From Saprospiraceae bacterium (GTDB lineage: Bacteria; Bacteroidota; Bacteroidia; Chitinophagales; Saprospiraceae): a DNA stretch of 63,026 nt. Positions 3,318 through 55,058 of the stretch are shown here, in pieces (positions within the stretch are counted from its first letter, which is position 1; each line of letters starts with the position of its first letter). A model generated the notes under the pieces. It ran no database searches. It worked only from the letters and a program-made list of their open reading frames with translations, and was not told where the DNA came from. The stretch is from positions 1 through 63,026 of the forward strand of contig JAIPBL010000029.1 of the NCBI GenBank assembly GCA_021739645.1, written 5' to 3'. A program made the translations under genes and the position numbers.

Positions 3318-3360
3318 GAAAATTGAAAATTGAAAATCCCCAATTCCCAATTTTCAATTC
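3318..3360. repeat. Intercistronic hairpin of a short tandem repeat
   Basis: On the minus strand, directly after the phospholipase-like gene's stop codon, G/A-rich units of the type GAATTGAAAATT are followed by their C/T-rich complement. They can form a hairpin in the spacer before the cupredoxin gene. It belongs to the spacer-hairpin set described in the findings. Confidence 0.5.
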
Positions 3361-4640
3361 TCATGCCCCCGCCCGAGCTGCTTCCCACTATTCACTGCCT
3401 TTTTCAATTCAATTTCCGTGGAATCCGGCAGCGTGGCCGTTTCTTCACCGAGGTTAGAAAGATCGGGCTGACCGGCCAGCACCCACGCAGTGTACCAGGC
3501 ACTGCCCACGGCACGGATGGCTCCTTGCATCCGGTCCTCCACCATGCCGCTCATGCGCTCGTGGTAGGCGGCGGCAAAATCCTCGCACTGCGTTTTCACA
3601 AAAACGTTGTTTCGGTACTCGTTGCACATTTGGCGGTCGGGTGGGAACTGCTTGCGCAGCGACCGCTCAATGCCAATCACGCTGTCCACCAATGCATAAC
3701 TGTCCAGCACGATTTTCCAAAAATAGTCCTTCGGCTTTTCGATAAAATCGGCCTGCCCCACCCAAAAGTCATACTGCTCGTCGGCATAGAGTTCAGGCAG
3801 GCGGCTCTCCCAAAAGGCATGGAGGCCATCCTGTCCGGTCATTTGACCGTTGTAGTTCATGGAAGTGTGCAACGGTACATGGGCATCGGCGATGTAGTGG
3901 CCGATGTCGGCGCTGTAATGCAGGATGCGTTTTTCGTCGTGCTCGACAAAGGCATCAGTGAGGCGCTTCAGCATCTGCTCCAAGTTGTAGGGCAGCACGC
4001 CGTGTTGTGAAAAAGTGTCCAGCACAAAAATCTTCCGGCAGTTGAGCTGGCCACCGCCCAATAGATTGGCCAATGAATCGCATGGGACGCTCCATTTCTC
4101 ATCGTCGTAATAGTGCGACAGGATGTTTTGGTTAAAAAAGCGGCGGAAATCCTTACGGGTTGCCCCCTTTGGGCTTGCCACGTCGGAGCCAGCGCCCGCT
4201 TTCTCTCTTTTGAAAATACGGGGGTTGAACGCTACTGAATCCGATTCTTCGGTGATGGGAGCGGTGATAAGGCGCAGCGTATCGCCCCGTTCATTTACAT
4301 AAAAATACTGGAAATACTGCATGAGTGCATCTGTCCAAACACGGGGCAGCTCCTCGAAGGGCGGCTCGCCGTAGCGGTCGAGGTCGAGGAAGTGGCGGGG
4401 TGCTTCGTGCTTGCTGGCATAGCGGCGCATGTCGGGGTCCACGGCATGTTCGGTAAGCCAGTCCACGTTTTTTTTGTAAAAAACCAGCATCTCCGGCGGC
4501 AGGGTGAACACCGCCATTCGGTTGATTTTGCGGTGGCCGAAGAAGCCCCAGGCGGCGGTAGGGGCGGGGCGCAGGGCAAGGAGTATTGCCACAAATGGAA
4601 AAGCAAGCAGCAGGATTGGTTTGAATTTGATAAAACCCAT
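3354..4640 (-). CDS. Zinc-dependent phospholipase C / S1-P1 nuclease-like protein
   Basis: This 428-residue secreted or membrane-anchored protein has an N-terminal hydrophobic signal (about 5-30). The mature chain would begin at Trp31 (AWGFFGHRKIN). In S1/P1 nucleases and bacterial zinc phospholipase C the N-terminal Trp itself binds zinc. His36, Asp68, His83, the HYIADAHVPLH stretch (about 248-258) and LHAFWES (about 273-279) match the metal-binding pattern of that superfamily. The region between about 115 and 225 is longer than in classical S1/P1 nucleases, a form I associate with Bacteroidota proteins annotated as zinc-dependent phospholipase C. A phosphodiester is the expected target, but lipid versus nucleic acid cannot be decided from the sequence. 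The cupredoxin gene follows on the same strand. Confidence 0.75.
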   Translation of the reverse strand: MGFIKFKPILLLAFPFVAILLALRPAPTAAWGFFGHRKINRMAVFTLPPEMLVFYKKNVDWLTEHAVDPDMRRYASKHEAPRHFLDLDRYGEPPFEELPRVWTDALMQYFQYFYVNERGDTLRLITAPITEESDSVAFNPRIFKREKAGAGSDVASPKGATRKDFRRFFNQNILSHYYDDEKWSVPCDSLANLLGGGQLNCRKIFVLDTFSQHGVLPYNLEQMLKRLTDAFVEHDEKRILHYSADIGHYIADAHVPLHTSMNYNGQMTGQDGLHAFWESRLPELYADEQYDFWVGQADFIEKPKDYFWKIVLDSYALVDSVIGIERSLRKQFPPDRQMCNEYRNNVFVKTQCEDFAAAYHERMSGMVEDRMQGAIRAVGSAWYTAWVLAGQPDLSNLGEETATLPDSTEIELKKAVNSGKQLGRGHEN

Positions 4641-4812: not shown

Positions 4813-6294
4813 TCACAACTTATCCAGCGCCTGCTGAATCACATCATCCCAAGCTTTCCCAATGGCCGGGTCTCGTTTCCAGTAAAAATCGTTTTCCTGC
4901 ATTTCCGCCTTTAGCGTTTGAAGGAAATTGGAGAAGTCCTGCATTTCGAGGCCAGCGTGGCCGCTGTACTGTTTAATCAGTGCAAAATTGGCGAGGGCGT
5001 TCGGGTTGTCCACGTCAATGAGCTGAAGCAGCATCACCCGCAGCTTTTTTCGGGTTCGCTTGCTGACAGGGCCTTCGCCGAAACGCTTGGCATAGTCCCG
5101 CTCCGGGTGCTCCTGGAACAACCGTACATAAAAACTGCTGATGAAGTCCTTGCTTTTTGCGCAGCACCGCAAATAACTCTCGTGTACCAGTTCCGTGGAA
5201 CGCTCGCCGTGGATGGGCAGGCGGTAGAGTTCCTTGTCCAGTTCCACGAGGTTGGAGTAGCGTTTGTTCGGGTCTTCTTGCAGCAGTCTATCGAGGATGT
5301 CTTGCAGCTTTTTGGGCAAATTGGCGGCTTTCAGCACTCCCCGGCGGAAGACGGGCTTGCTGAAAAACTGGCGGCGGTGGTCCATTACCTCCTCCACCGT
5401 GTTGCCCCGGAAGAGTGGGCAGCCCGTCATCATTTCGTACATCAGCAGGCCCATGAGGAACTGGTTGACCTTGTCGTAGTCAATGTTTTCGGCTTCAACG
5501 CTCAATTCTTCGGGACTGGAATAAATGAGGTCGTCCTTGATTTTGTCCAACCGGCTAAAGCCCCGCATGTCCTTGAAGATTTCAAAAACGGAGATGACAG
5601 GTTTCAGTTCATGGTCAATGATGATTTTGGAAGGGCGCAGGTTCTTTAGGTCAACGCCAAGGTTTTGCAGGTAGTACAGCCCATCGCAGAGCTGCCGGAT
5701 GATGGAGATGGTGTCCCGCCGGGGGATGTAGCCGACCTCCAGCAGTTTGTCGAGGGTGATGCCGTTGATGTACTCCAGCACGAGGCAGAACGGGATGTCG
5801 CTCTCATAGCTGCTCAACACCTCGATGATGTTGCGGTGTTTGAGCCGATAGACAATGCTGGACAAAGTGTTGGGGAGTGGCTTGATGTCCTTGAGCGCCC
5901 GCACAGCCACGGTCTTGCCACTCGACAGTTCCCTCGCCCGGTAAATGACCGCCGAAGTGCCGCTGCCCAGCACCTCCTGTATGTCAAAATGGCGCATCAT
6001 CTTGAGTTGCACCTGCTTGTCGAAGTCGTTTACGTCGTATTTGAGGTCAAGCACGGTGTTCACCCGCTCCTCCAGGTTTTCGTAGAAGTACAAAAACGAG
6101 TCGGTAATCCGGTTCATTTCGGTGTCCAGGTCTTCCTGTTTTGCGACTTTCTTTAGCCGTTTTTCTTCCAACTGTGCCAAGCGGGAGCGCAGCAGCGCCA
6201 AGGTGTTGGCATCTGCCTCCATGGATTCGAGCAGTTTCAAAAGGGCGTCCAGCGCCTCCTCGATTTTTCCGTCTTGAACCAGTTCTTTTATCAT
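4813..6294 (-). CDS. EAD11-like / pseudokinase / globin-like fusion protein
   Basis: This 493-residue soluble protein has three parts. Residues 1-78 resemble effector-associated domain 11: a short helix with DGKIEEALDALLKLL, then LLRSRLAQLEEKRL and EMNRITDSFLYFYENL. Residues 102-356 have a protein-kinase fold with a glycine-rich loop (GSGTSAVIY, 110-118) and a PxKRYSN end. Every catalytic residue is replaced: the VAIK lysine is Arg132, HRD is Leu216-Lys217-Asn218, the catalytic-loop Asn is Lys223, and DFG is Val236-Phe237-Glu238. It is therefore a pseudokinase. Residues 368-490 look globin-like (DFISSFYVRLFQEHPE, a central HAGL segment, AW at 481-482), but the proximal-His position seems occupied by Ser. 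No signal peptide or membrane segment is present. The EAD suggests recruitment to a partner carrying the same domain; no such partner is visible nearby. The globin call is my inference from pattern. Confidence 0.75.
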   Translation of the reverse strand: MIKELVQDGKIEEALDALLKLLESMEADANTLALLRSRLAQLEEKRLKKVAKQEDLDTEMNRITDSFLYFYENLEERVNTVLDLKYDVNDFDKQVQLKMMRHFDIQEVLGSGTSAVIYRARELSSGKTVAVRALKDIKPLPNTLSSIVYRLKHRNIIEVLSSYESDIPFCLVLEYINGITLDKLLEVGYIPRRDTISIIRQLCDGLYYLQNLGVDLKNLRPSKIIIDHELKPVISVFEIFKDMRGFSRLDKIKDDLIYSSPEELSVEAENIDYDKVNQFLMGLLMYEMMTGCPLFRGNTVEEVMDHRRQFFSKPVFRRGVLKAANLPKKLQDILDRLLQEDPNKRYSNLVELDKELYRLPIHGERSTELVHESYLRCCAKSKDFISSFYVRLFQEHPERDYAKRFGEGPVSKRTRKKLRVMLLQLIDVDNPNALANFALIKQYSGHAGLEMQDFSNFLQTLKAEMQENDFYWKRDPAIGKAWDDVIQQALDKL

Positions 6295-6310
6295 GATATG
6301 GATGGTTGAA

Positions 6311-6400
6311 TTGTTGGATTGTTGGATTGCTTTATTGTTGATTTATTGATAGCTACTCGAACCTACAACATTCCAACAATAAAGCAATCCAACAATAAAG
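6311..6400. repeat. Intercistronic hairpin, perfect 22-nt arms
   Basis: Bases 6319-6340 and 6374-6395 are perfect inverted copies, each made of a repeated TTGTTGGATTGC-type unit that continues imperfectly outward. The element fills the gap between the stop of the C25-like gene and the start of the pseudokinase gene, both on the minus strand. Confidence 0.85.
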
Positions 6401-6403
6401 CAA

Positions 6404-9400
6404 TTATTCCATCTTCACCACCTTCAGCACCGCTACTTTGCCTTCGGCAACGATTTTACAAAAATAAACACCTGACGGTGAATTATTTAGGTCAAACTGC
6501 CACGTTTTTTCCAGCACATTTTCCAGTTTGGTTTTGGCCAAAATGCGGCCCGTCACGTCCAGTAGCTCCACCTGCACGGGCAGTGGGTTTTCCAGTTCGA
6601 GTCTCAGCTCGAACTTGCCATTCGTCGGGTTCGGCGAGAGGGCGAGGCGGCGCAGACCGGGGAGGTCGGTGGTCGCATCCAGCCCAGCCTGAATTTCCAC
6701 TATCACGATGAATACACATCCAGCAGCATCGGTGATGGAGCAATTGTGGACCCCGGGCGAAAGATTGGTAGCCGTAGCGGTGGTTTGTCCATTGTCCCAA
6801 AGGTAGGTGTAAGGAGGCACGCCGCCAGAAGGTGACAAGGTTGCAGATCCGTCATTGGCACCAGCTACCGTTTCATCCGTTACCGTGAACCCAACTTCCC
6901 AAGGAATTGGAAAGCTCACCGTGCCGCTTACCGATGCAGTACAGCCATTGAAATCAGTGACGGTAATTTCGTAGTTAGTTCCCGGAGGGAAAGGTGGCTG
7001 CGGTGAAAAGGTATAGGTATAAGGGGCCACGCCGCCTGTTGCTACAATTGTAGGAGTGAAACTCCCGTCGCAATCAATCGAACCTGCTCCTTCGAGCGTC
7101 AATGCTGGCGGTGCAGTCACCACCACGGTTTGCTCAGTTTCACAACCGTTCAGTGCTGTAGCTGTCACCGTGTAGCTACCTGGTGGAACGGTCTGCACAG
7201 GGTTGCCATCGAGGCCAGTCCACCAGTACATCACACTCGAAGTTGAGGAACTGGCGGTCAGCGTAGTCACATCATCGGCACACGGCAGGTCAAAGTCGCC
7301 AGTAATATCGAGGGTTGGGACGGAGATATCTTCTGTAACTTGAATATTGTCAGACCCAACCAAACATCCCGTAGCATTGTCAAATACTTCGAGCAGGTTA
7401 TTTCCCAGCTCAAGATTGACCACTGGCCCTGTTACGACCTGTCCGTTCAATTTGCAGGTGATGCCTGGCAAGCCGCATATTGCTGACAAATCAACCGTTG
7501 TCGATGTAATTATGCAGTTGATGACAACATCAGGTATAACAATGGTTATGGTCGGTGGAATCATTTCAATGACCGTAATCGAATAGGTGGCGGCGCATCC
7601 AGTGCCAGTGTTTGTCACCAATACCATGTAATTACCCGGTTGAGTAACCATTGGGTTTTGCGCAGCAGAAGTGAAGCCGTTCGGCCCCGTCCAAGCAAAA
7701 GTGTAGCCAGCCATGTCGGGGTTGGCCATGATGGCCACTTGCGTAACGTTACAGGTCAAAAAACCTGTCGCCATTGGGTTCGCCTGTGGCAAATCACCCT
7801 GTTGCATCACGCTTGCGGTAGCAGTTGCACTGCAACCATTCGAGGAAGTGACAGTGAGCAAATAAGTGCCAACACTGGTCACCACCGGGTTTTGTTCATC
7901 GGAGGCAAAGCTGTTCGGGCCCGTCCAATGATAGGATACATTTTGAGTGGTCGAGCTGCCCATCAGTTGCACCGTTGGCGAAGCGCAAGTAATATCGCCG
8001 CCGGTAGCCGAGGCATCGGGTACGGCAAATGGCGCCAAAGTGACGCTAGCGGACGAAGTGCAGCCGTTGGAAGGGATGGTGACGGTGAGCAGGTAATCAC
8101 CCGGCTCGGTCACAGTCGGGTTTTGCATGGAGCTGCTGAACCCATTGGGGCCGCTCCAGGCATATTCAACGACAGGTGTCGTGCTATTTCCCATCAGTTG
8201 AGCACTTTGTGCTGCGCAATTGATGGCTCCAACCGAAGCAGTTACGTTTGACGGTGTGACACTATTGACGAAAACCAGTAAAAAATCTTCAACGACGCAT
8301 CCGGTTGCAGGGTCGGTTGCAGTGACATTGTAAATCCCCGACTCAGTAAGAATCACAGGTGTATTTGAAGTCACGCCGGGGCCAGTTGCGAAGCAGGTAA
8401 TGGGCGCCTGACAAGGGTCGAGCAGATAGCTTGGGTTGTTGCAATTCAACGACACTTCGAAAGGTAGGTCTAAAGTAGGCGGCGTCACCTCCACCACATT
8501 TATGCTGGCTGGAGCGCCCGTGCTCATGTTGAAGAAAATACCGCTTGGCGTTTCTTCCCGAACCACGGCCTTTACGAAGTAAAATTTGTCACCAATGTTT
8601 GGAGAATCGTCGGTGAATATCGTCGAGGTGACAGGCGAGGTAGTCAGGCGTGTATAAAATTGGGTGTTGAAAACATTTGCCCTGAAAACATGGTAGCCCA
8701 CCACGTCCGTTTGCTCTGACGCTGTCCAGTTGAGTTCAACACCGTTGCAAATTTGCGCAGCCACCACATTGCTCGCCGGAGCCACCACCTGCGCCCGAAT
8801 ACTAGGGTCGCCGAGCAGGCTCACATGTGCGCCACAAGCACCAAAGCTATCGAAATAGCCAGGAATTTCACAGGTGTTTTGGGTCTGCAATGCGCAGTTG
8901 CCAATCGTTTCACCAGCACCCAATGGGTGGGTAAACCAATGGGGGCGACCCGCCCAGGCGCAGTTCAATATGCCGCCTTTAGAGGCCAGGGCGCTCATCA
9001 TGAAGGGGTTGGGGTTGTAGTCCCAATCGCCGTGGTAGCTGCCGAAAAGCTGCACGAACACCGCGTTCACGGTATCACTGGCGAACTGGGCACTGGTACC
9101 CACTCCATTGGCGCTGGTGTAAGAGCCGCCGCCAGTGCCATAGGCGAAGAGGAAGCTCTGACCATCGTCGGTATCGTTGAAAAAATCGCCAGCCTGCACG
9201 TTGTTGACACCCACGAGTGGGTAGCCGTTGCGGTAGCCATTGGCAGCGAAAGCCTCACCGCCAAAGTAGCCGAAATTGTCGTCCACCAACACCTTGTTGT
9301 CCACGGTGTATTGCTTCGAGCGCCAGTTGTGGTTTTTGTCGAGATAACGCCGGTAGAGTTCCGTGCGGGTGGTGCCGAAGGTCGTTTCTGAGAGGTTGGA

Positions 9401-14966: not shown

Positions 14967-16034
14967 ATGAACTCAGAGAATTTTCACGAATACGTCAAGA
15001 ACCCCTCGATGCTCCATCAGGTGACCTATCAGGAGTTGAAGAGTTTGGTGCTCCAGTACCCGTATTCGCCCAACCTGCGCTACCTTTTGCTGCTAAAAAG
15101 CCTGTTTGAGCAAAGCAGGGATTTTGATAGAAATCAAGTGTTGGCCTCCCTCAGCAGCCCCGACCGGAAAAAACTGCGGCAATTGGTGAAGCAATACACC
15201 CGCTTTCGGGAAATGCAGGAAAACTACACGCTGAACGAGGATTTTTTGGAACTCAAAGACCTCTCTTCGCTGGAAAGTATGATGGACGAAATGGAAGCGG
15301 ATGCAGCGCCCAAACAAACAGGGGCCGCCGTGCCACCACCGCTTAATCCAACTAAGGTGGAAGCTATTGGCGATGATTTGGAGGAAGAAGTTGAGGAGGT
15401 AAGCGACCTCAATTTCTTAATGGATGTTGGTGGAATTGCCGAAGCCGATGAAAACGCTACCACCGAACCGGTAGAACCTAATCCTGAAGTCGATGAAATT
15501 GCTGCTACGGAAAGCCATGACCAGTCAGTTCCTCTGGAAGAATTGATGGAAACTGCGGAAGATGAAATGCAAGTGGAGGAAGCCTCCGTTGAGGAAGCGA
15601 TACCAGACATTGCGGTTGAGGAAACGCCCGAAGAAGCCGAAACGCCAAAGCCTACCGCCGCTAATATTCCACTTGAAATCACCAGCGAAACGGATGCACA
15701 TCCTACGCCGATGCCGAAATCGTCGTTCAATACTTGGCTGAGGAAGTTCAAGCCACCGGAAGCAGGGATTTTGAGCACCGATTTGAAAGATATTTCACTG
15801 AACAACAAGCCGCACCAGCACCCGGTGGAGGAAATAGAACCCGATGCGAAACAGATTGCAGAGCAAAGCGTTGTGGAGGATGGTGAAATTGCCAGCGAGA
15901 CCTTTGCGCTTTTACTGGAAAGGCAGAGACTTTTTGGCAAAGCAATTTCAATGTATGAACAATTGAAGTTGTTATATCCCGAAAAAAGCAGTTTATTTGC
16001 GGCCAAAATCGAAGAATTGAACAAGAAAATCTAA
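14967..16034 (+). CDS. Conserved acidic protein of unknown function
   Basis: This 355-residue protein has a helical N-terminus (1-120, HEYVKNPSMLHQVTYQELKSL, a LRYLLLLKSLFEQ helix), a long acidic low-complexity middle (about 125-270, rich in Glu, Ala, Thr and Pro) and a conserved helical C-terminus (LERQRLFGKAISMYEQLKLL...KIEELNKKI) resembling a single TPR-like helix pair. I recall similar proteins of this layout next to secG in Bacteroidota, with no known role. No signal peptide is visible. It is followed by secG on the same strand after a hairpin-filled 97-nt spacer. Confidence 0.8.
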   Translation: MNSENFHEYVKNPSMLHQVTYQELKSLVLQYPYSPNLRYLLLLKSLFEQSRDFDRNQVLASLSSPDRKKLRQLVKQYTRFREMQENYTLNEDFLELKDLSSLESMMDEMEADAAPKQTGAAVPPPLNPTKVEAIGDDLEEEVEEVSDLNFLMDVGGIAEADENATTEPVEPNPEVDEIAATESHDQSVPLEELMETAEDEMQVEEASVEEAIPDIAVEETPEEAETPKPTAANIPLEITSETDAHPTPMPKSSFNTWLRKFKPPEAGILSTDLKDISLNNKPHQHPVEEIEPDAKQIAEQSVVEDGEIASETFALLLERQRLFGKAISMYEQLKLLYPEKSSLFAAKIEELNKKI

Positions 16035-16053
16035 TTTGAAGAAGTTAGGCAAT

Positions 16054-16104
16054 AGACATTAGACCATAGACCACCTCGGTTTTTCCTCTAAGTGTCTAAT
16101 GTCT
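16054..16104. repeat. Intercistronic hairpin of a short tandem repeat
   Basis: AGACATTAGA at 16054-16063 and TCTAATGTCT at 16095-16104 are exact inverted copies. Both extend outward as degenerate tandem units of the same word up to the preceding stop and toward the secG start. Same architecture as the rpoB-rpoC and nusG-rplK spacers. Confidence 0.7.
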
Positions 16105-16131
16105 AAAATCTAAAGTCTTAAAATATTTACC

Positions 16132-22379: not shown

Positions 22380-22392
22380 ATAAAAAAAAGAT

Positions 22393-22485
22393 GGCAAGCA
22401 ACTACATCACACCGCTCAACAACCTACCCTTGCTGCGTTTCCGCCCTGGGGGAGTTCAGCCGGAGCTGGTTGTGTAGCGCTTGCC
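22393..22485 (-). ncRNA. ffs: Bacterial small SRP RNA (4.5S RNA)
   Basis: Read on the minus strand, the ends GGCAAGC and GCTTGCC pair. The apical region shows the SRP helix-8 signature (CCCAGGGCGGAAACGCAGCAAGGG): the symmetric loop with CAGG...AGCA and a GGAA-type tetraloop, where Ffh binds. The length is about 93 nt, typical of a short SRP RNA. A TACCTTTG promoter box lies 6 nt upstream and a terminator directly downstream. Confidence 0.92.
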
Positions 22486-22490
22486 GGGGG

Positions 22491-22498
22491 CAAAGGTA
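22491..22498 (-). promoter_or_regulatory. -7 promoter element of the SRP RNA gene
   Basis: TACCTTTG on the minus strand fits TAnnTTTG exactly and lies 6 nt before the first base of the SRP RNA. No TTG box is seen at the usual distance. The 286 bp between here and the RRM gene start hold only A/T-rich sequence. Confidence 0.75.
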
Positions 22499-23566: not shown

Positions 23567-23603
23567 CTGAGTATCGCTTTGTGGTGATACTCAGTTTTTT
23601 TTT
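23567..23603 (+). terminator. Terminator after the RRM gene
   Basis: CTGAGTATC (23567-23575) pairs with GATACTCAG (23586-23594) and is followed by nine T. Its T run touches the stop codon of the convergent T9SS gene. Confidence 0.85.
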
Positions 23604-26600
23604 ACTTTATCAAACTCACCCCGCCCTTGAACAAACGCACTTGGCCATCCAGAAAAACAACCTCGGCATACCAGACGAAAACCGCTGGGTCAAGCTCTTT
23701 GTCCTTGTAAGTGCCCGTCCAGCCAAGCTGCAAGTCGTTCGGCTCAAAATTGTAATACTCGAAGACCAGTTCGCCCCAGCGGTCAAAAATCTGAAAGCTT
23801 TTTATTTTGTCCACTTGCGGCCCAGCGAATACTGTCAGCTCGTCGTTGATGCCGTCGTTGTTGGGGCTGAAAGCGTTCGGTACGTAAACTTGCTCCACTT
23901 TTTCCACAAACACCGTCAACTCGCCCTCAGCTGTGCAGCCGTTTAGGTCTGTGACGGCTATCGTGTACACGATGTCGTTGCGTGGGGTGCAGAGCGGTTT
24001 GGGGCAGTCCGTGCAGCTGAGGTAGTCGGGTGGCGACCAGGACCAAGTTGCGATTTGCGAAGCAGAACCAGCACCGAGCACCACACTGTTGCCGAGCGGC
24101 ACGGTGTATGGGCCGTCCAAATCAACTTGCAGCACGGGCGCATCGGGCATGAAAACCTCTTGCGTGGTGATGACGCCCAGCGCATCAATAATGGTGAGGG
24201 TGTGGAAGCCAAAAGTCAGGTTGTCGAACACGACGGGAAAACTGACCACTGGGGCAGAGCTGCCGCCGTTCAACGCAACGACGTAGGGCGGCGTGCCTCC
24301 CTGAACGGCCGTCAAAGTGATGGCCCCATCGCCCCCGAAATGACAAAGCGGCGAGCTTACCTCAACGATGCCAACTACGTCTTGGCCCTCAAAACTCAGG
24401 TTGACGACCACGGTCGAGTCGCAGCCCGTGTAGCTTGCGCCAGCGAAAACCTCCGTTCCCGAAGGATTCTGTGCATCGTAAATGGTGCCGTTCACGACGA
24501 TGAAACCACCCATCTGTAAAATGTCGGTAATATTCCCGACCGCATCCGGGAAAAACGACAGACCGACGTTCACCGTGGAGTCGCAGCCGAGGTAGCTACC
24601 ATTGGGGATGGTCTCACTTCCTGTCGGGTTGGTGGCCGAGTAGATTTCCCCATTTACCACCACCACTTCGCCAAGGCAAAGCGTCGAATCGAGGCTAATA
24701 ATCACCGAATTTCCGAAGGTCAAATTGATGTTTATGGTTGAATCGCAGCCGTTTGTGCTTGCATTCTGCAATACTTCAGTGCCACTTGGGTTCGCCTCGT
24801 TGTACACCGTTCCGTTGACGGTAATGCTGCCCCCAGTGCAGAGTTGGTCGTCAATCGTGCTGCTAACTGGTGGGTAAAACGACAGGCTGACGCTCATCGT
24901 AGAATCGCAGCCGTTCACGCTGCCGTTAGAGATGACCACCGAGCCGCTGGGGTTGTTTTGGTTAAAAACCGTCCCGCCCAAAGTGATGCCCCCATTGGGG
25001 CAAAGCGTTGTGCTGAAACTGCCTGTGGCAGGGGCGTAAAATGACAAGCTGACGTTCACCGTGGAATCGCAGCCGTTCACACTGCCGTTGGGGATGACCA
25101 CCGAGCCGCTGGGGTTGCTTTGGTTAAAAACCGTCCCCCCAACTGTGATGCTGCCACCTTGGCAGAGCGTTGGGTTCAAATTGCCAACGGCAAGCTGGTA
25201 AAACGACAGGCTGACCATCGCAACGGAGTCGCAACCGAGATAACTGGCGCCGGGCATCGTCTCCATGCCGCTGGGGCTGGCGGCGTTGTAAACCGTACCG
25301 TTTACCGTAACGCTACCACCTTGGCAGAGTGTCGGGCTGATGTTCGAGGTGACCACCGAATTGAAACTTAGGTTCACCACAATGGCCGAATCACAACCAT
25401 TGGCAGCGCCAGCGATGATGACCTCCACGCCACTTGGGTTGTTTTCGTCGTAAACAATGCCGTTCACGGTAATGCTTCCACCTGTACAAAGGGTTTGGGT
25501 AAAATTGGTGGTTGGGCTTGGTATGGGTGCCAAGTTGACATATATCACTGAATCACAACCACTTGCGGCAGCATTTGACAGGGTGATGGTGTCAGTTGGG
25601 TTGTTTTCGTCGTAATCCACGCCATTCACCGTGATGATTTGGCCGGGGCAAATGTCGGCAACGACGCTCAGAACGGCTGCCTGGAAAAACGCCAAGTTGA
25701 TATTCACGGTCGAATCGCAGCCAGAAGCACTGCCGCCGGGGAAGAATTCCGTTCCGGTTGGGTTGGCTTCGTTGTAGGTTGTGTTGTTTACCACCACCGA
25801 CTCGCCGGGGCAAAGCATGGGGGAGAGGTTGTTCACCACGCTGTTTCCAACGGTGATGTTGATGGTCGGTGCAGTGAGTGAAACGCCGCAACTGTTCCCG
25901 TCTTCGAGGGCTGTCACCTCTATCGTCACCACGCCATTGGTGATGTTGAAATCGGCGGGACAAAACTGGACGGAGGAACTGGCCGGGAGGTTGCTCTGTG
26001 AGCTGTTTCCCACCAAAATATTGTTGAAATAAACGTTCCATTCAAAGTAAAAAGGCGGAATCCCGGTGAACTGAACGGGGATGTTGTAGCAGTCGCTGGC
26101 GCAAATCGAGGCATCGTTCCCGATTTGAACCGTTGGCAGATAAAATACAATGGGGATAGCCTGGGAGAAGCTGAAGCAAGGGTCGTTGAAGTCCACATTG
26201 CCAGTGCCGTCGTCGTTCCCGGCAATGGCCGACACGTAGTACGTTTGCCCCAAAACCAGCCCCGGCGGTGTTTGTATGACCGCAGAATTGCTCGTTGCGA
26301 GGATGTTGGCCAGCAAGACGTTTGGGCCGTCGAGCAAGACAAACTGCAAGGTATCGTCGCTGTCCAAAACCTCATCCTGCTTGAACGGCACGGAGAACTG
26401 GAAATGGTTGATGCACAATAGGAGCGGTGCGTTTGCAAAGTTCATGGTGCCAGCATCGGTCACGCAGCTGCAGTTTTGACTGCCTGTAACCGTCACCGGG
26501 CCGCAGCTATTGGCATCGTCAATGTCAAACGAGTAGCTAGTGCCGCTTGGAATTGGGGTTGAAGTGAAAGTAGAATCGGCCAATGTCACACCGTCCACCG

Positions 26601-28902
26601 TGTAAGGCGCTGTGCCGCCGATGATGGTGAAACTGACCTCATAAGTCTGCGTGGCGAGGTCGCAAACTTCCATTAGGTTGGTGAAGCTGATGGTGGAGAA
26701 AACCGTGACCATGGTCGTGCCGGACACCGTGCAGTTTGCCGTAGGCACAAAAGCCAGTGTCACGTTGCCGTTTTGGCCAGCCGGATTAAAGTTGCCGCCA
26801 CTGACCCCAGGGCCACTCCAAGTGCCAGCCGGGTAGTTCGGGTCGATGAGGTTGGTGAGGTCGTAAGGCCCGCCGTTTTGGCAGAGCATGGTGGTGTTGA
26901 GTTGAGGCGTGGCTGGTGTGTTTACGGTGATGCTCGTTGTGGCTGGGTCGGCGCACTGCCCGGCATTTGGGGCGAATGTGAGGGTGATGCTGCCGCTCAA
27001 CCCCGTGGGGTCAAAGCTGTTGCTGGCGACGCCGCTTCCCGACCAGTTTCCCACAAACCCACTTTGCGTGGTGGGCAAGGAGATGGCATTTCCGGTTTCA
27101 CAAATACTGTCCGGAACGCCTGTGATTGCAGGGATAGTTGGCGTAGATACGTTGATGCTGGTCGTGGCCGTGTCGGCGCACAGCCCGGCATTTGGGGTAA
27201 ACGTGAGGGTGACGCTGCCGCTCAAACCCGTGGGGTCGAAGCTGTTGTTGGTGACGCCGTTCCCCGTCCAGTTTCCGGCAAAGCCATCTTGCGGGGTGGG
27301 TAAGGAAATGGCGTTTTCTGTTTCACAAATACTGGCCGGAACCCCCGTGATGGTTGGGGTGGTGGCCGAGTTCACAGTGATGCTCGTCGTGGCCGGGTTG
27401 GCACACAGCCCTGCATTTGGGGTGAAAACAAGGGTGACGCTGCCGCTCAAACCCGTGGGGTCGAAGCTGTTGTTGGTGACGCCGTTCCCTGACCAATTTC
27501 CGGCAAAGCCGCCTTGCGGGGTTGGTAAAACGATGGCGTTTTCATTTTCACAAATACTGGCCGGAACCCCCGTGATGGCTGGTGTGGTGGCCGTGTTCAC
27601 GGTGATGTTCGTGTTTGCTGGCCCCACGCAATTTTCACTTGAAGTGAAAGTAATGGTAATGGCGCCACTCAACCCGCTTGGATTGAAAGCAGTGCCAATC
27701 ACGCCTGTTCCTGACCAAGTGCCCTGCTGATAAAATGGGTCTTGCAACAACGTGAGGTCGTAGGGTGGGTCGGTGTTGCAAATCACGGTGGAGCCGAGCA
27801 TGGGTGTGGCGGCTTGTGTGACCATGACCGGCAGACTGGCCGTGTTGGCACATTGACCGGGGGTTGGCGTAAAGGTCAGACTGAAATTGCCCGGCCCACT
27901 AGAAATTGGGTCAAAGGTGTTGGCGATGACTCCTTGGCCCGTCCAATTCCCGTTGATGCCGCTCAGGTTGGTGGGCAGACTGGCTGGAGGGTCGGTGGTG
28001 CAAAATGGGCCGATGGGATTTGGCAACGGGTTCACCGCTGAGTTGATGGTAACCATCATCGTCGTAGGCAATGCACATTGGCCAGCCGTTGGGGTAAAAG
28101 TGGCGGTGATGGTGTTGCCGCCTTGTCCCGTGGGATTGATGCTGGCGGGGTTCCAAGTGCCGTTGATACCTTGGGTGGAGGTAGTCGGCAGAACAAATGG
28201 CGGGTCGTTTTCGCAAAGCGGCCCAACGGCGTTGAAAGTGGGTGTAGCGGCGGCGGTGCCGTTGACAACGATATTGTCGATATAATAATACTCGTTGTTG
28301 GACTTGTTGGCAGCAAAAAACCGAAATTGGAGCGTGTTGCCGTTCAGTCCCATTACGCTGATGGTACCTGAGAGCGGCATCCCGCAAACGTAGCCAAACT
28401 GCGTCCAGCCCCCACTGTTCAGGCTGTATTCCGACACAATTTGGTCGTGGCTGTTGTCGGGTGGGGTAGCGCCTTGGCAGCCGAAAATCGGTGAACCACC
28501 TGAATCACATTCGAAATCGCCAGTGCCTGATACATCGAACGTGATGCTCACGTTGCAATAGCCCGAAATGTCGATGACTTCCGACAGCCAGGAATTGTCG
28601 TTGCCACCGCCGCCAAACGCCGGGCAGCAGGGTGCACCTTCGATATCGTTGATGGAAAAAACGCCCGACCAAACCCCCCATTGGCTGGCGCCGGGGCCGA
28701 GGTTCAGGTTGCCGCCGTCGTCGCAGTCGGTGGCAATGGTCGTCCATTTTGGAGGGCCTTGTGTGGTGGCGTCAGGGTAGCTATTGAAATCTTCTGTCCA
28801 AATTTGGGAATAGGCGGGGGAGAGAAAAATACTGGAGATAAACAGCAACAAAATGCTGTGCCTTACAACCGCAAATACCAGTAGGGAGTGCCGTTTAGCC
28901 AT
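23602..28902 (-). CDS. Giant T9SS type B (gliding-motility-type) repeat protein
   Basis: This protein of about 1766 residues is exported and surface-attached. The N-terminus has a long hydrophobic signal ending near SPAYSQ; I use the Met of MAKRHSLLVF, as the earlier frame starts almost at the putative promoter. Residues about 35-220 form an MAM/jellyroll-like domain (WTEDFNSYPD, ISGYCNVSITFD, YYYIDNIVVNG). Then come Ig-like repeats of about 75 residues, three nearly identical (ITGVPxSICExxNAI). An irregular region follows, then nine 54-residue repeats with LC...GG.ITVNG...NPSG...GCDST. The end has a PKD-like SPPDYLSCTDCP segment and the type B sorting domain (VYVPNAFSPNNDGINDELTVF...FDRWGELVFE). 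Function may be adhesion or matrix formation; this is inference. Confidence 0.9.
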   Translation of the reverse strand: MAKRHSLLVFAVVRHSILLLFISSIFLSPAYSQIWTEDFNSYPDATTQGPPKWTTIATDCDDGGNLNLGPGASQWGVWSGVFSINDIEGAPCCPAFGGGGNDNSWLSEVIDISGYCNVSITFDVSGTGDFECDSGGSPIFGCQGATPPDNSHDQIVSEYSLNSGGWTQFGYVCGMPLSGTISVMGLNGNTLQFRFFAANKSNNEYYYIDNIVVNGTAAATPTFNAVGPLCENDPPFVLPTTSTQGINGTWNPASINPTGQGGNTITATFTPTAGQCALPTTMMVTINSAVNPLPNPIGPFCTTDPPASLPTNLSGINGNWTGQGVIANTFDPISSGPGNFSLTFTPTPGQCANTASLPVMVTQAATPMLGSTVICNTDPPYDLTLLQDPFYQQGTWSGTGVIGTAFNPSGLSGAITITFTSSENCVGPANTNITVNTATTPAITGVPASICENENAIVLPTPQGGFAGNWSGNGVTNNSFDPTGLSGSVTLVFTPNAGLCANPATTSITVNSATTPTITGVPASICETENAISLPTPQDGFAGNWTGNGVTNNSFDPTGLSGSVTLTFTPNAGLCADTATTSINVSTPTIPAITGVPDSICETGNAISLPTTQSGFVGNWSGSGVASNSFDPTGLSGSITLTFAPNAGQCADPATTSITVNTPATPQLNTTMLCQNGGPYDLTNLIDPNYPAGTWSGPGVSGGNFNPAGQNGNVTLAFVPTANCTVSGTTMVTVFSTISFTNLMEVCDLATQTYEVSFTIIGGTAPYTVDGVTLADSTFTSTPIPSGTSYSFDIDDANSCGPVTVTGSQNCSCVTDAGTMNFANAPLLLCINHFQFSVPFKQDEVLDSDDTLQFVLLDGPNVLLANILATSNSAVIQTPPGLVLGQTYYVSAIAGNDDGTGNVDFNDPCFSFSQAIPIVFYLPTVQIGNDASICASDCYNIPVQFTGIPPFYFEWNVYFNNILVGNSSQSNLPASSSVQFCPADFNITNGVVTIEVTALEDGNSCGVSLTAPTINITVGNSVVNNLSPMLCPGESVVVNNTTYNEANPTGTEFFPGGSASGCDSTVNINLAFFQAAVLSVVADICPGQIITVNGVDYDENNPTDTITLSNAAASGCDSVIYVNLAPIPSPTTNFTQTLCTGGSITVNGIVYDENNPSGVEVIIAGAANGCDSAIVVNLSFNSVVTSNISPTLCQGGSVTVNGTVYNAASPSGMETMPGASYLGCDSVAMVSLSFYQLAVGNLNPTLCQGGSITVGGTVFNQSNPSGSVVIPNGSVNGCDSTVNVSLSFYAPATGSFSTTLCPNGGITLGGTVFNQNNPSGSVVISNGSVNGCDSTMSVSLSFYPPVSSTIDDQLCTGGSITVNGTVYNEANPSGTEVLQNASTNGCDSTININLTFGNSVIISLDSTLCLGEVVVVNGEIYSATNPTGSETIPNGSYLGCDSTVNVGLSFFPDAVGNITDILQMGGFIVVNGTIYDAQNPSGTEVFAGASYTGCDSTVVVNLSFEGQDVVGIVEVSSPLCHFGGDGAITLTAVQGGTPPYVVALNGGSSAPVVSFPVVFDNLTFGFHTLTIIDALGVITTQEVFMPDAPVLQVDLDGPYTVPLGNSVVLGAGSASQIATWSWSPPDYLSCTDCPKPLCTPRNDIVYTIAVTDLNGCTAEGELTVFVEKVEQVYVPNAFSPNNDGINDELTVFAGPQVDKIKSFQIFDRWGELVFEYYNFEPNDLQLGWTGTYKDKELDPAVFVWYAEVVFLDGQVRLFKGGVSLIK
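24390..25850 (-). repeat. Nine 162-bp (54-residue) coding repeats
   Basis: Within the giant T9SS gene, nine consecutive units share the pattern LCxGGSITVNGTVYNxxNPSG, then NGCDSTVNVxLSF. Two adjacent units have the same DNA words exactly 162 bp apart (24931 and 25093). Each unit has two Cys, except that the ninth has lost the first one (ILQMGG). Confidence 0.85.
26918..27600 (-). repeat. Three near-identical 225-bp (75-residue) coding repeats
   Basis: Three units with the shared core NWSGNGVTNNSFDPTGLSGS repeat every 225 bp. Older, diverged copies lie on the N-terminal side. The high DNA identity suggests recent duplication or gene conversion within the gene. Confidence 0.8.
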
Positions 28903-28932
28903 CATCAAAATTGTTTTGGGCAAATGTTTTCA

Positions 28933-28992: not shown

Positions 28993-29059
28993 AGGTATGA
29001 GGTATCGAGGTATGAGGTATGCTCTGCTGCCATACCTCATACCTCGATACCTCATACCT
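28993..29059. repeat. Intercistronic hairpin, perfect 29-nt arms
   Basis: Bases 28993-29021 and 29031-29059 are exact reverse complements made of an (A)GGTATG(A) tandem unit with a 9-nt loop. The element abuts the stop of the Ppx-like gene (minus strand) and lies in the spacer before the giant T9SS gene. Confidence 0.9.
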
Positions 29060-31179: not shown

Positions 31180-31276
31180 AGCTTTATTATTTTTAGGGTT
31201 ATTGATTGAAGACCATCTGTTGTTTCAAGTCTTCCTCAACCCTCCCACAAATTTATAAACCCGTTTCGTAAAATAC

Positions 31277-31371
31277 CCCACCGTTCCAGCAAGTTTAGCG
31301 AAGCGGCTCTTGCGGTGAGCCTGCTCCACATAACGCAAAAGCCGCTACGCTAAACTTGCTGGAACAGTGGG
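31277..31371. repeat. Inverted repeat with 38-nt arms
   Basis: Bases 31277-31314 and 31334-31371 are inverted copies with about three mismatches around a 19-nt loop. No T run is present. It lies in the gap between the small lipoprotein and the sialidase-like T9SS gene. Confidence 0.85.
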
Positions 31372-31437
31372 CTTTTCTTAGATACTTGGGCACTGCTGGG
31401 CTTGGAATGTGGAACATTTTCGGCAAAGGGTGTCCAA

Positions 31438-35519: not shown

Positions 35520-35547
35520 ATAAGATGCGCTGAGTTTTTTTTTACCA

Positions 35548-35617
35548 CTTTGGCATTCCCGAAGGGAACCTACGACATCTCGCGAGACGTTGCAGGTTCC
35601 CTTCGGGAATGCCAAAG
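35548..35617. repeat. Perfect 24-nt inverted repeat with nested palindrome
   Basis: Bases 35548-35571 and 35594-35617 are exact reverse complements. The arms contain the words CCCGAAGGGAACC and its complement, and the loop holds the self-complementary TCTCGCGAGA. It sits between murI and the convergent DUF4139 gene and may serve both 3' ends. Confidence 0.9.
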
Positions 35618-35663
35618 CGGCTTGGGGCAAAAAACTATTTGTTGATGGATTTTTGCGCCAGTC

Positions 35664-41072: not shown

Positions 41073-41078
41073 CCCAAT

Positions 41079-41164
41079 GAGAGAGGCGAGAGAAGTGAGA
41101 GCGTGAGAGAGAAAACAAACTTGTTTTACCTCTCACTTTCTCACTTCTCTCACTTTCTCACTTC
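41079..41164. repeat. Hairpin filling the tRNA-Tyr / tRNA-Gly spacer
   Basis: After tRNA-Tyr, about 40 nt of GAGAG/GTGAGA-type units run into AAAACAA, then TTGTTTT and the C/T-rich complement (TCTCAC units), ending just before tRNA-Gly. The arms match imperfectly. The hairpin separates two mature RNAs, so it could guide processing. It belongs to the spacer-hairpin set. Confidence 0.8.
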
Positions 41165-41172
41165 TTTGAAAT

Positions 41173-43792: not shown

Positions 43793-43897
43793 AATGATGA
43801 ATGATAAGTGATGAACGATGAATTGAGCGACTATAGCCCAAATCATTTTGGAATCCACTTTGACGGATACATCATTTATCATTTACCATTTATCATT
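43793..43897. repeat. Hairpin filling the nusG-rplK spacer
   Basis: Just after the nusG stop, AATGATGA/AATGATAAGTGATGA units form a G/A/T arm. The C/A/T-rich complement (TCATTTATCATTTACC units) ends 13 nt before the rplK start. The central 60 nt are unpaired. Same architecture as the rpoB-rpoC spacer. Confidence 0.7.
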
Positions 43898-44351: not shown

Positions 44352-44487
44352 CTGAAAATGTGCACCGGGAAAGCACGATAAATTTCCCATAAAAACAAAT
44401 CCTTGGGGCATTTACCCCAACTATTTTGAGTAGGGAGCCTTGGCCGTAAAGTCGGACTGGCGCTAATTACCTCACAAATTTTATTCA

Positions 44488-45783: not shown

Positions 45784-45919
45784 TAAGCACTGGTTGGGCT
45801 TTTGGTGTTGACTATGATTCATATCAACTTCATTAATTCTTACCAACTCTAATCAACAAATAAACTTGGCTTCCAAGACAACGCACATAAGTTTTCTTAA
45901 AATTTAAAAACGAATTAAA

Positions 45920-46297: not shown

Positions 46298-46400
46298 GCT
46301 GATACCCGGCTTGCCGGACTATTAGCAAAAAGCAGTTATTTACTAATCTAAATCGATGCTTAGTTACAACTTTTTTGCTACATAGCGCTTTTAGTACAGG

Positions 46401-46436
46401 AGGCTTAACCGATCTGCCCGCAGATTGGTTAAGCCT
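46401..46436 (+). promoter_or_regulatory. Hairpin in the rplL-rpoB spacer
   Basis: AGGCTTAACCGATCTG pairs with CAGATTGGTTAAGCCT (one G-U pair) around a CCCG loop. There is no T run. In E. coli this spacer holds a partial attenuator and an RNase III site that adjust rpoBC relative to ribosomal proteins; the same role is possible here. The rest of the 355-nt gap shows no further structure I can support. Confidence 0.65.
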
Positions 46437-46652
46437 ATTGTCGTTTCATAAGTTGTGATACTTTGTTTCTTGCTGAAAGGCAGTTAGTTGGAGCTTATTC
46501 TATTGAGATTTGCGGAGTCGGAAAAGGGAAGGTTGTATGTTTTTTGCTTTGCTAAAAATATGCCGTTCTATCCAAAATCCTATCTGCCCGAATTTCCTTC
46601 AGGAAGCAGGTTTGACCGCAATTACAATCACTAATAAATTTTTACGCCGAAT

Positions 46653-49600: not shown

Positions 49601-50474
49601 TGACTACAGCGGGTGGACGAACGACGACGAAACCAACGGGTTGATTGCTAGGCTGTTGCACAACTACAGCATCAAGCTGAACGAAGAAGTAGGTCGCTAC
49701 AAGCGGGAGAAATTCAACATCAGTATTGGTGATGAGCTACCAGCTGGCGTATTGAAACTGGCCAAAGTTTATATCGCCAAAAAGCGCAAGCTGAAAGTGG
49801 GCGACAAACTCGCAGGCCGCCACGGAAACAAGGGTATCGTGTCACGTATCGTGCGATTGGAAGACATGCCATTTACCGAAGACGGCCAAGCAGTGGACGT
49901 AGTTCTGAACCCACTGGGTGTACCTTCAAGGATGAACCTTGGTCAAATCCTCGAAACCGTACTTGGTTGGGCTGGTCAGAAACTTGGCGTTCGCTACGCT
50001 TCTCCAATCTTCGACGGTGCACACAAAGATGAAATCGAGCACTTCATCCAAGAAGCTGGCCTTCCTTCTTTGGGACAAACATGGTTGTCGGATGGTGAAA
50101 CGGGCGACCGTTTCCACCAGCAAGCAACGGTGGGCGTTATCTACATCTTGAAACTCTCCCACATGGTGGACGACAAGATGCACGCACGTTCCATCGGGCC
50201 ATACTCGCTCATCACACAGCAGCCGTTGGGTGGTAAGGCGCAGTTCGGTGGCCAGCGTTTTGGTGAGATGGAGGTTTGGGCACTCGAAGCATTCGGTGCA
50301 GCCAGTATCCTTCAGGAATTGCTAACGCTTAAATCTGACGACATCGTCGGACGTGCCAAAGCCTACGAGGCTATCGTCAAAGGCGATGTGCTGCCGGAGC
50401 CGAACATCCCGGAATCGTTCAATGTACTCGTCCACGAATTACGTGGTTTGGCATTGGACATCAAGTTTGATTAA
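46653..50474 (+). CDS. rpoB: DNA-directed RNA polymerase subunit beta
   Basis: This 1273-residue protein is one half of the polymerase catalytic core. Visible conserved blocks are RSPGVFFGQ, the rifampicin-region [33 protein letters not shown] (shown here as positions only, about 470-502), [45 protein letters not shown] and [21 protein letters not shown]. The rifampicin-pocket residues look wild-type (no obvious resistance change). Length is typical for Bacteroidota. rpoC follows after a hairpin-filled 83-nt gap. Confidence 0.99.
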
Positions 50475-50477
50475 TTT

Positions 50478-50548
50478 GTGATTGGTGATTGGTGATTGGT
50501 GACTGGGGAGGCCCAGCCACCAATCACCAATCACTAGTCTCCAATCAC
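50478..50548. repeat. Hairpin filling the rpoB-rpoC spacer
   Basis: Repeated GTGATTG units from 50478, shortly after the rpoB stop, pair with repeated CAATCAC units ending at 50548, shortly before the rpoC start. The match is imperfect and the loop is short. It is the clearest case of a tandem-repeat hairpin spanning an entire gap inside an essential operon. Confidence 0.85.
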
Positions 50549-54954: not shown

Positions 54955-55058
54955 CGGGTGAGCAAGTGAGAGATGCGAGCAGGTGATCGGGTGAGAGATG
55001 TGAGCGAGTGAGCGGGGGGACTGCTCACCCGCTCACATCTCTCACCCGATCACCCGCT
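54955..55058. repeat. Hairpin of GTGAG/GCGGGTGA tandem units
   Basis: Units of the type GCGGGTGA and GTGAGAGATGTGAGC form a G-rich arm. The C-rich complement near 55023-55058 runs into the stop codon of the convergent SAM hydrolase-like gene, so on that gene's strand the G-rich arm starts at its stop. The inner parts match nearly perfectly for about 38 nt. Confidence 0.85.

Follow-up and report, generated by a model that had tools for sequence, protein, structure and literature searches.

REP and REPIN elements are fixed sequence families associated with a RAYT. The hairpins described here, from gene spacers of a Saprospiraceae bacterium and other Bacteroidota, resemble them in being dispersed intergenic palindromes, but differ in comprising many unit families, in hardly ever having a tag at the foot and in lacking a link to Y1 transposases. 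As far as the published descriptions covered here go, the present hairpins are of a kind already known from the STRR hairpins of cyanobacteria and the inverted heptamer pairs of Xanthomonas. The STRR are mostly 7-nt intergenic repeats able to form hairpins, and their function is not known (PMC2670836). The tandem arrays surveyed here are also intergenic and able to form hairpins, the unit being 7 nt long in 79 out of 105 periodic hairpins, 8 nt in 21 and of another length in five. Unlike the STRR, the Bacteroidota hairpins are spread over many unit families, their chirality has been measured, and units are swapped between species at the same spacer. As regards the sequence motifs of the cyanobacterial STRR classes, the units of the present hairpins vary, and a 39-nt GTGATTG array matched nine plasmids with E up to 0.1, three from Nostocales, one from Pseudanabaena and five from Streptomyces.

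In Xanthomonas, GGGAATC heptamers are found in 70 and 75 close pairs with convergent orientation; these repeats are mostly intergenic, lie near the upstream gene and vary between species (PMC4692102). The Bacteroidota hairpins similarly consist of two convergent arrays close together, and 96 out of 100 periodic ones have the G-rich arm before the C-rich arm (G-first); going by the published description, the convergent G-rich arms of Xanthomonas would be G-first as well. The Xanthomonas repeats differ in that they constitute one unit family, discussed as G-quadruplex (PMC4692102), and the parts of that description covered here mention neither a chirality across many units nor unit replacement at orthologous sites. 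In the tRNA-Leu intron of Nostoc the P6b stem is made from either of two heptamer motifs, which have replaced one another several times independently (PMC4476775), but this is one locus inside a group I intron and under RNA-structure constraint. The TAACTGA repeats of Beggiatoaceae, found also in some Bacteroidetes and cyanobacteria, are intergenic heptamer arrays (PMC4679880) and as such similar to the hairpin arms; they are, however, direct repeats located mostly before start codons, and a table listing 170 sets has a single inverted case. Among the open-access titles and abstracts listed by the literature searches, none reports chirality across many families, unit swapping at orthologous sites or this class of hairpin in Bacteroidota, and the chirality across many unit families together with the unit swapping is the new part.

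The window, i.e. the whole stretch of 63,026 nucleotides that was analysed, is one contig of a 6.16-Mb Saprospiraceae (Bacteroidota) genome in 147 contigs, below called the source genome. Its RpoB is nearest to those of named Saprospiraceae and Saprospirales genomes, with best named hits of 85%, and displays 88-98% identity to the same-genus species giving a match. The operon in the window has the order tRNA-Thr, Tyr, Gly, Thr, tuf, tRNA-Trp, secE, nusG, rplK, rplA, rplJ, rplL, rpoB, rpoC. RpoB, RpoC, NusG, L11 and SecG were confirmed by Pfam and the tRNAs by ARAGORN, while the remaining operon genes are named from their position and the E. coli order.

The hairpins, listed in Table 1, are repeat-armed palindromes: inverted short tandem arrays, mostly with units of 7 or 8 nt, located in spacers. 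The preliminary description had reported hairpins with tandem-repeat arms in the spacers of the window, and this was confirmed, since all eight sites have inverted arms with the C-poor arm first. Tandem structure was also found at all eight by Tandem Repeats Finder with a low score limit. Six are strong stems with 25 to 34 paired positions, while 16034-16124 is mismatched and 3318-3362 is weak and escaped the survey detector. Four sites (50474, 43793, 6301, and 28993) pass a strict test for periodicity in both arms, 16034 passes in one arm, and 41078 and 54978 have repeats too degenerate to pass and are grouped with the plain hairpins. The rpoB-rpoC hairpin starts at the rpoB stop codon, and at 28993-29059 a variant unit of one arm is mirrored in the other arm. 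Among the 13 stems detected in the window, seven palindromes lack tandem arms (95, 11223, 22340, 30585, 31277, 35545, and 37323). Two long plain palindromes are located at 31263-31385 (35 paired positions) and 35545-35620 (32), and a stem at C132 92788 in the source genome, AGTTTAG..GAAGCGGCTCTTGCG, is similar to them.

Table 1. Repeat-armed hairpins of the window, with repeat unit, position, strand and pairing.
Feature	Unit	Positions	Strand	Pairing
rpoB-rpoC spacer hairpin	GTGATTG	50474-50548	+	29 paired positions (50474-50545); G-rich arm first
nusG-rplK spacer hairpin	AATGATGA	43793-43897	+	25 paired positions
tRNA-Tyr-tRNA-Gly spacer hairpin	degenerate GTGAGAG	41078-41165	+	33 paired positions (41078-41160)
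Hairpin before secG	TAGACAT	16034-16124	+	29 paired positions, many mismatches
Spacer hairpin	TTGTTGGATTGC	6301-6413	-	34 paired positions
Spacer hairpin	GGTATGA	28993-29059	-	29/29 paired, perfect 29-bp stem
Weak hairpin	AATTGAA	3318-3362	-	20-nt arms, 85% complementary
Hairpin after rpoC, convergent genes	degenerate GCGGGTGA / GTGAGAGA	54955-55058	.	34/36 paired (54978-55058)

Some other features of the window were noted. A search of the whole window against Rfam gave six matches above the gathering score, none of them on the hairpins: five are tRNAs and the sixth is a Bacteroidales-type small SRP RNA (22388-22493, minus strand, RF04183, 77 bits). Downstream of the variable nusG-rplK hairpin, the rplK-rplA spacer (44352-44487) and the rplJ-rplL spacer (45784-45919) contain non-repeat blocks conserved in the genus, GGGAGCC..TTACCTCA and TTGGCTTCCAAG..CGCA, respectively. 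These two blocks are possible ribosomal-protein leader RNAs, although neither gave an Rfam match at the gathering score. By eye, the closer sister species show strong conservation of the 355-nt rplL-rpoB spacer (46298-46652), which seems to contain a stem around GGAGGCTTAAC..GGTTAAGCCTATTGTCGTTT. On the minus strand, a large open reading frame at 23602-28923 has tandem repeats with periods of 162 bp and 225 bp, at 24874-25215 and 26923-27612, and 4813-6294 encodes a protein kinase that has an effector-associated domain (Pfam EAD11) at its N-terminus.

The survey covered 845,762 bp of the source genome, 778,880 bp of the same genus, and 80 named Bacteroidota rpoB loci (1,624,584 bp); the sampling was non-random, all named loci and some of the sister samples being centred on rpoB. 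The gene models came from a home-made ORF scorer instead of a standard gene caller. A hairpin is called periodic when both arms are self-similar at an offset of 5-16 beyond shuffled arms (p<=0.02 each). Mirror repeats served as the control for composition and chance. The window and the contigs C132 and C78 together contain 57 inverted repeats, 53 of them in spacers, vs four mirror repeats. The excess of hairpins expected by the preliminary description holds genome-wide, with 108 spacer hairpins vs one spacer mirror repeat in the source genome; 34 of these hairpins are periodic, 32 G-first and two C-first. The same-genus sample gave 114 spacer hairpins vs one mirror repeat and 35 periodic hairpins, all G-first (35:0), and the named loci 139 vs 11, with 31 periodic (29:2). 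An earlier pass, which took in the named loci and six more from other families within the order, had given 29/29 G-first; the ratio of 29:2 was obtained with other gene models. In 398,684 bp from three genomes belonging to other families of the order there were ten hairpins, and in 100 kb of E. coli five, none of them periodic, while 350 kb of cyanobacterial plasmids contained five periodic hairpins, four G-first and one neutral. Spacer arrays are paired vs unpaired in 28/5 cases in the source genome, 26/5 in the sisters, 20/8 in the named loci and 13/9 in the cyanobacterial plasmids; three unpaired rows consist of stretches of N or C, and the unpaired arrays are too few to give an orientation relative to genes. 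A Chitinophagaceae MAG (L058) is dense in repeat-armed hairpins: six of eight spacer hairpins in 22 kb are periodic, with units such as CGTGAGG, AGTCTGT, and GTTTGGC.

The arm order is nearly invariant. It had been suggested that C-rich arms coming first equally often would speak against a fixed order, and only four of the 100 periodic Bacteroidota hairpins are C-first. These four have weak skews, from -0.05 to -0.29, and the two in the source genome (C132 3498 and C115 31701) do not have the look of heptamer arrays; among periodic hairpins with |skew|>0.4 the ratio of G-first to C-first is 81:0. When the units are grouped by a greedy procedure, 43 of 44 families are G-first. In 98 hairpins the first arm contains A.301, G.305, T.319, and C.075, and the second arm C.307, A.330, T.291, and G.072. 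A GTGATTN hairpin pattern in the G-first order occurs in two of 198 Bacteroidota genomes, with 21 overlapping matches in the source genome and one match in the other, while its C-first counterpart has no match in the same 198 genomes, the source genome included. For plain hairpins the ratios are 37:30 in the source genome, 37:17 in the sisters and 44:40 in the named loci, and for strongly skewed plain stems of at least 15 pairs 10:4, 12:3, and 14:15, respectively. The plain hairpins of the genus thus have a milder G-first lean, which derives partly from degenerate repeat-armed stems, such as 41078 and 54978, classed as plain.

The preliminary description had interpreted the order as a fixed polarity between an upstream stop codon and the next start codon. 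The G-rich arm does come first, but a polarity along transcription had to be rejected: a palindrome reads the same on both strands, and the arm order is therefore a chirality of the hairpin and not a polarity of the genes. For periods of 7 or 8 nt, leaving aside the cyanobacterial plasmids, G-first hairpins make up 59/60 and 15/15 in the two colinear contexts (>> and <<), 8/8 in convergent and 5/5 in divergent spacers. This bears on the proposal that the order reflects a survival filter acting on RNA, where C-first arms would be lost as Rho loading sites or because they lack stop codons at gene ends. In its favor, arrays do provide the stop codon in some genes (e.g. C132 225257), and first arms have stops in more frames than second arms. 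Yet the order is G-first also where neither filter should act: in ten of 11 hairpins with a first arm free of stop triplets, in 22 of 23 without a gene 3' end within 25 nt, and in all 13 located between convergent or divergent genes. Among strongly skewed plain hairpins no clear filtering is seen (36 G-first vs 25 C-first over all sets and contexts). Such a filter is accordingly a very improbable explanation, and stop codons and Rho as the sole cause of the arm order were rejected on the no-stop arms and the convergent and divergent spacers.

In the genus samples, hairpins with a period of 7 or 8 nt are found in 46 of 766 colinear, seven of 158 convergent and five of 150 divergent spacers. In the colinear ones the median distance from the stop codon to the hairpin is 3.5 nt, with 35 out of 46 hairpins beginning within 10 nt, and the median gap to the next start codon is 17 nt. 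The hairpins do in this sense take up the spacer from the stop codon almost to the following start codon, but the earlier wording, that they fill operon spacers, was too narrow, since convergent and divergent spacers and one between tRNAs also carry them. The closely preceding stop codons are what would be expected of ordinary intrinsic terminators. However, a U-tract follows the stem in only four of 48 colinear and none of seven convergent repeat-armed hairpins of the genus, and is more frequent after plain hairpins (10/68 and 9/37), while two of the repeat-armed hairpins sit inside nusG-rplK and rpoB-rpoC. The rare U-tracts led to the rejection of intrinsic termination, the probability of which is considered negligible.

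When orthologous spacers of sister species are compared, the same hairpin is found with a different unit, which the preliminary description had named as support for its view. In this comparison, W denotes the window sequence and the G-numbers are sister genomes of the same genus. The rpoB-rpoC spacer folds to <= -33 kcal/mol in 12 of 12 genus sequences, eight of which have a stem above the detector limit. The unit is GTGATTR in W, G003, G006, G009, G010, and G011, a more degenerate GTGATTG in G008, and GGGAATT in G012, while G001, G002, G004, and G007 have other, non-repeat folds. Between nusG and rplK the unit is of the AATGATGA type in W, G008, and G011 and of the GTAACTC type in G006; of the ten sister species in which both genes are present, seven have a shorter non-repeat fold and no stem above the limit, with CC..GG ends in five of the seven. 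Before secG, for which eight of the 13 genomes with a match were examined, the unit is TAGACAT in the source genome and G012, GATACTG in G011 and G006, and of a GGTGAA type in G009; G007 has a plain hairpin and G003 and G008 have none. At locus C, examined in 12 of the 13 genomes with a match, the unit is GGATTGAA in the source genome, G217, and G006 and TTGTCGA in G012; a plain hairpin is found in G004 and G009 and none in G001, G003, G007, G008, G010, and G011.

Locus B consists of the gene at C132 116190-118580 and its neighbour. A full orthologue (86-100%) is present in six of 14 genus genomes, a G012 fragment and lower matches being left out, and all six spacers compared are filled by a hairpin of 18-34 bp. 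Five unit types are found: GTGATTG in the source genome, GTTATGA in G217, GGTTGATAnn in G003 and G011, GTTTAGnnn in G008, and a weakly periodic GTTTGAAT stem in G006. G003 and G006 have a few loop bases in common, so some of the locus B hairpins may be remodelled forms of a single hairpin and not new insertions. In G003 the orthologue of the 6301-6413 hairpin has the unit TTGTTGAATTGC, the place of 28993-29059 holds an unrelated plain hairpin, and the orthologue of the weak 3318-3362 is a stronger AATTGATA hairpin. By a looser one-arm test, eight of 65 orthologous spacers are repeat-armed in the source genome and eight in G003. Four are so in both, vs 1.0 expected; since three of these four have the same unit and one a different unit, the excess is weak as evidence for selection. 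Outside the genus, isolates of Mucilaginibacter and Pedobacter carry repeat-armed hairpins between rpoB and rpoC, again with differing units, while many other Bacteroidota have a short spacer without a hairpin. The occurrence in isolate genomes argues against an artefact of metagenome assembly.

It had also been stated that no two sites share sequence, that the hairpins are therefore not a copied repeat family, and that they are made anew at each site. The first statement holds among the window sites but not genome-wide, where the rpoB-rpoC hairpin has many relatives: a 601-bp query around it gave 58 matches in the source genome, many counted on both strands and all on the hairpin except for the full self match. 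The second is contradicted for at least two families, GTGATTG and GGTTGATA, which are dispersed and in part share loops. Three of seven GTGATTG loci examined have the common apex TGGGnnGGCCC. The GGTTGATA family is dispersed in two sister genomes: the locus B hairpin of G011 has 14 matches in G011 and 34 in G003, and the loop sequence TGCYC..CGCAG is common to three of seven loci examined. As to the third statement, local remodelling does occur, but so does dispersal between loci.

These relationships could mean that the hairpins are dispersed palindromic mobile elements, REPIN- or MITE-like. Each unit family would then be an element that enters spacers in one piece, with a preference for sites directly behind stop codons, and replaces or overlays earlier elements. 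The common loops and apices point in this direction, as do the differences in hairpin presence between species and the match across the loop that 48 of 69 hairpins in the genus set have to another hairpin, orthologues included. Against it, several families have common arms but differing loops, full-span matching divides the 69 hairpins into 34 groups (13 groups and 21 singletons), and no target duplication was seen by eye in the alignments or flanks examined. Nor does hairpin abundance follow the transposases. PF01797 has seven matches in the source genome and three in each of G003 and G014; the hairpin-rich G003 is without a good Y1 match (best E 1e-4), while G014, with no periodic hairpin in 200 kb sampled, has three matches. 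The REP tags GTAG and CGTC, taken from the title of PMC3733652, were found within 6 nt of either foot in two and none of 69 periodic genus hairpins, respectively, compared to 6/127 each at the feet of plain hairpins. Mobilisation by a RAYT was rejected on these two grounds, and insertion of whole mobile elements is on balance considered unlikely.

The two arms of a hairpin change together, either by selection or by copying. In 11 orthologous hairpin pairs, 268 base pairs could be compared and another 23 were lost to gaps. Two-sided changes retained Watson-Crick pairing in nine cases and not in four, where the per-side rate predicts about 3.7 doubles and about 1.2 Watson-Crick ones. Three of seven Watson-Crick doubles in six of the pairs require a transversion, e.g. 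G-C to T-A, and have no G-U intermediate; such changes are easier to obtain by copying. One-sided changes gave 17 G-U, eight A-C and 12 others (G-U vs A-C, p 0.11). For standing mismatches on the sense strand the counts of G-U and A-C are 82 and 119 in 103 colinear periodic hairpins, 21 and 23 in the source genome alone, and 77 and 47 in 135 plain hairpins; as orthologues are non-independent, only the absence of a G-U excess is relied on. As a test for selection on RNA the two comparisons contradict each other, 82:119 standing vs 17:8 between orthologues.

Selection on RNA would imply that the cell needs a stable spacer hairpin, for instance for mRNA protection, processing or translational uncoupling, while its sequence does not matter and repeats offer the simplest way of rebuilding it. 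The filled locus B spacers in all six species compared, the stable rpoB-rpoC folds throughout the genus with eight stems above the limit, the recurrence of repeat-armed rpoB-rpoC hairpins with different units in several Bacteroidota lineages, and the G-U lean of the one-sided changes are all in agreement with this. On the other hand, the standing mismatches of repeat-armed hairpins lack the G-U excess that plain ones have, many Bacteroidota have a short rpoB-rpoC spacer without a hairpin, divergent spacers carry hairpins too, and pairing alone gives no cause for the G-first order. A selected RNA hairpin is considered an unlikely explanation.

An origin in DNA by slippage and template-switch copying, with some dispersal, is the favored explanation and is given about an even chance. 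Slippage during DNA replication would multiply a short unit, and fold-back or template-switch synthesis would copy one arm onto the other, so that complementarity is kept while the sequence turns over; copies of the hairpins also spread between loci. The G-first order would then be a mark of direction, the first-made arm on a strand serving as template for the second, and C would either disappear from the first arm or never be favoured there. Alternatively, the order might stem from fold-back of a G/T-rich nascent strand, or from loss of C to T in an exposed first arm followed by copying. A required cellular function is probably absent. It has been argued that template switching makes and maintains hairpins, and that it can create a hairpin in one step and correct stems (PMC8794818). 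Within-strand correction towards the 5' base has been offered as the reason for an excess of G-C over C-G in RNA stems (PMC8794818), which fits the G-first order; the published correction also predicts an excess of U-A, but in the repeat-armed hairpins A and T are balanced. Over 74 gene ends, a weak resemblance is seen between a unit and the end of the gene upstream of it (p 0.004 to 0.064, depending on the setting). The order of variant units is mirrored between the arms in nine of 74 hairpins testable by permutation (p<=0.05), a result that is not convincing as proof of whole-arm copying.

Some observations speak against an origin by DNA copying. The dispersed families with common loops imply copying between loci, an outcome that neither slippage nor local template switching would produce; the occupation of every locus B spacer compared looks like selection or a strong hotspot; the G-U lean between orthologues is as expected under RNA selection; and the strongly skewed plain hairpins of the genus lean G-first.

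The strand-symmetric chirality of all but one of the unit families argues against most accounts that start from function, and it is a simple quantity that every mechanism has to explain. The swapping of units at orthologous spacers makes the question of origin experimentally testable, and a hairpin conserved between species need not imply a conserved sequence. More tentatively, and with the odds leaning against it, the hairpins may represent a heritable structure without a heritable sequence, where arrays are kept, the unit is rewritten and the arms are G-first because replication copies the first-made arm. If so, the chirality common to Bacteroidota, cyanobacterial plasmids and, by description, Xanthomonas would preserve, like a fossil, the direction in which fold-back DNA synthesis proceeds, and this direction could be read from ordinary genomes.
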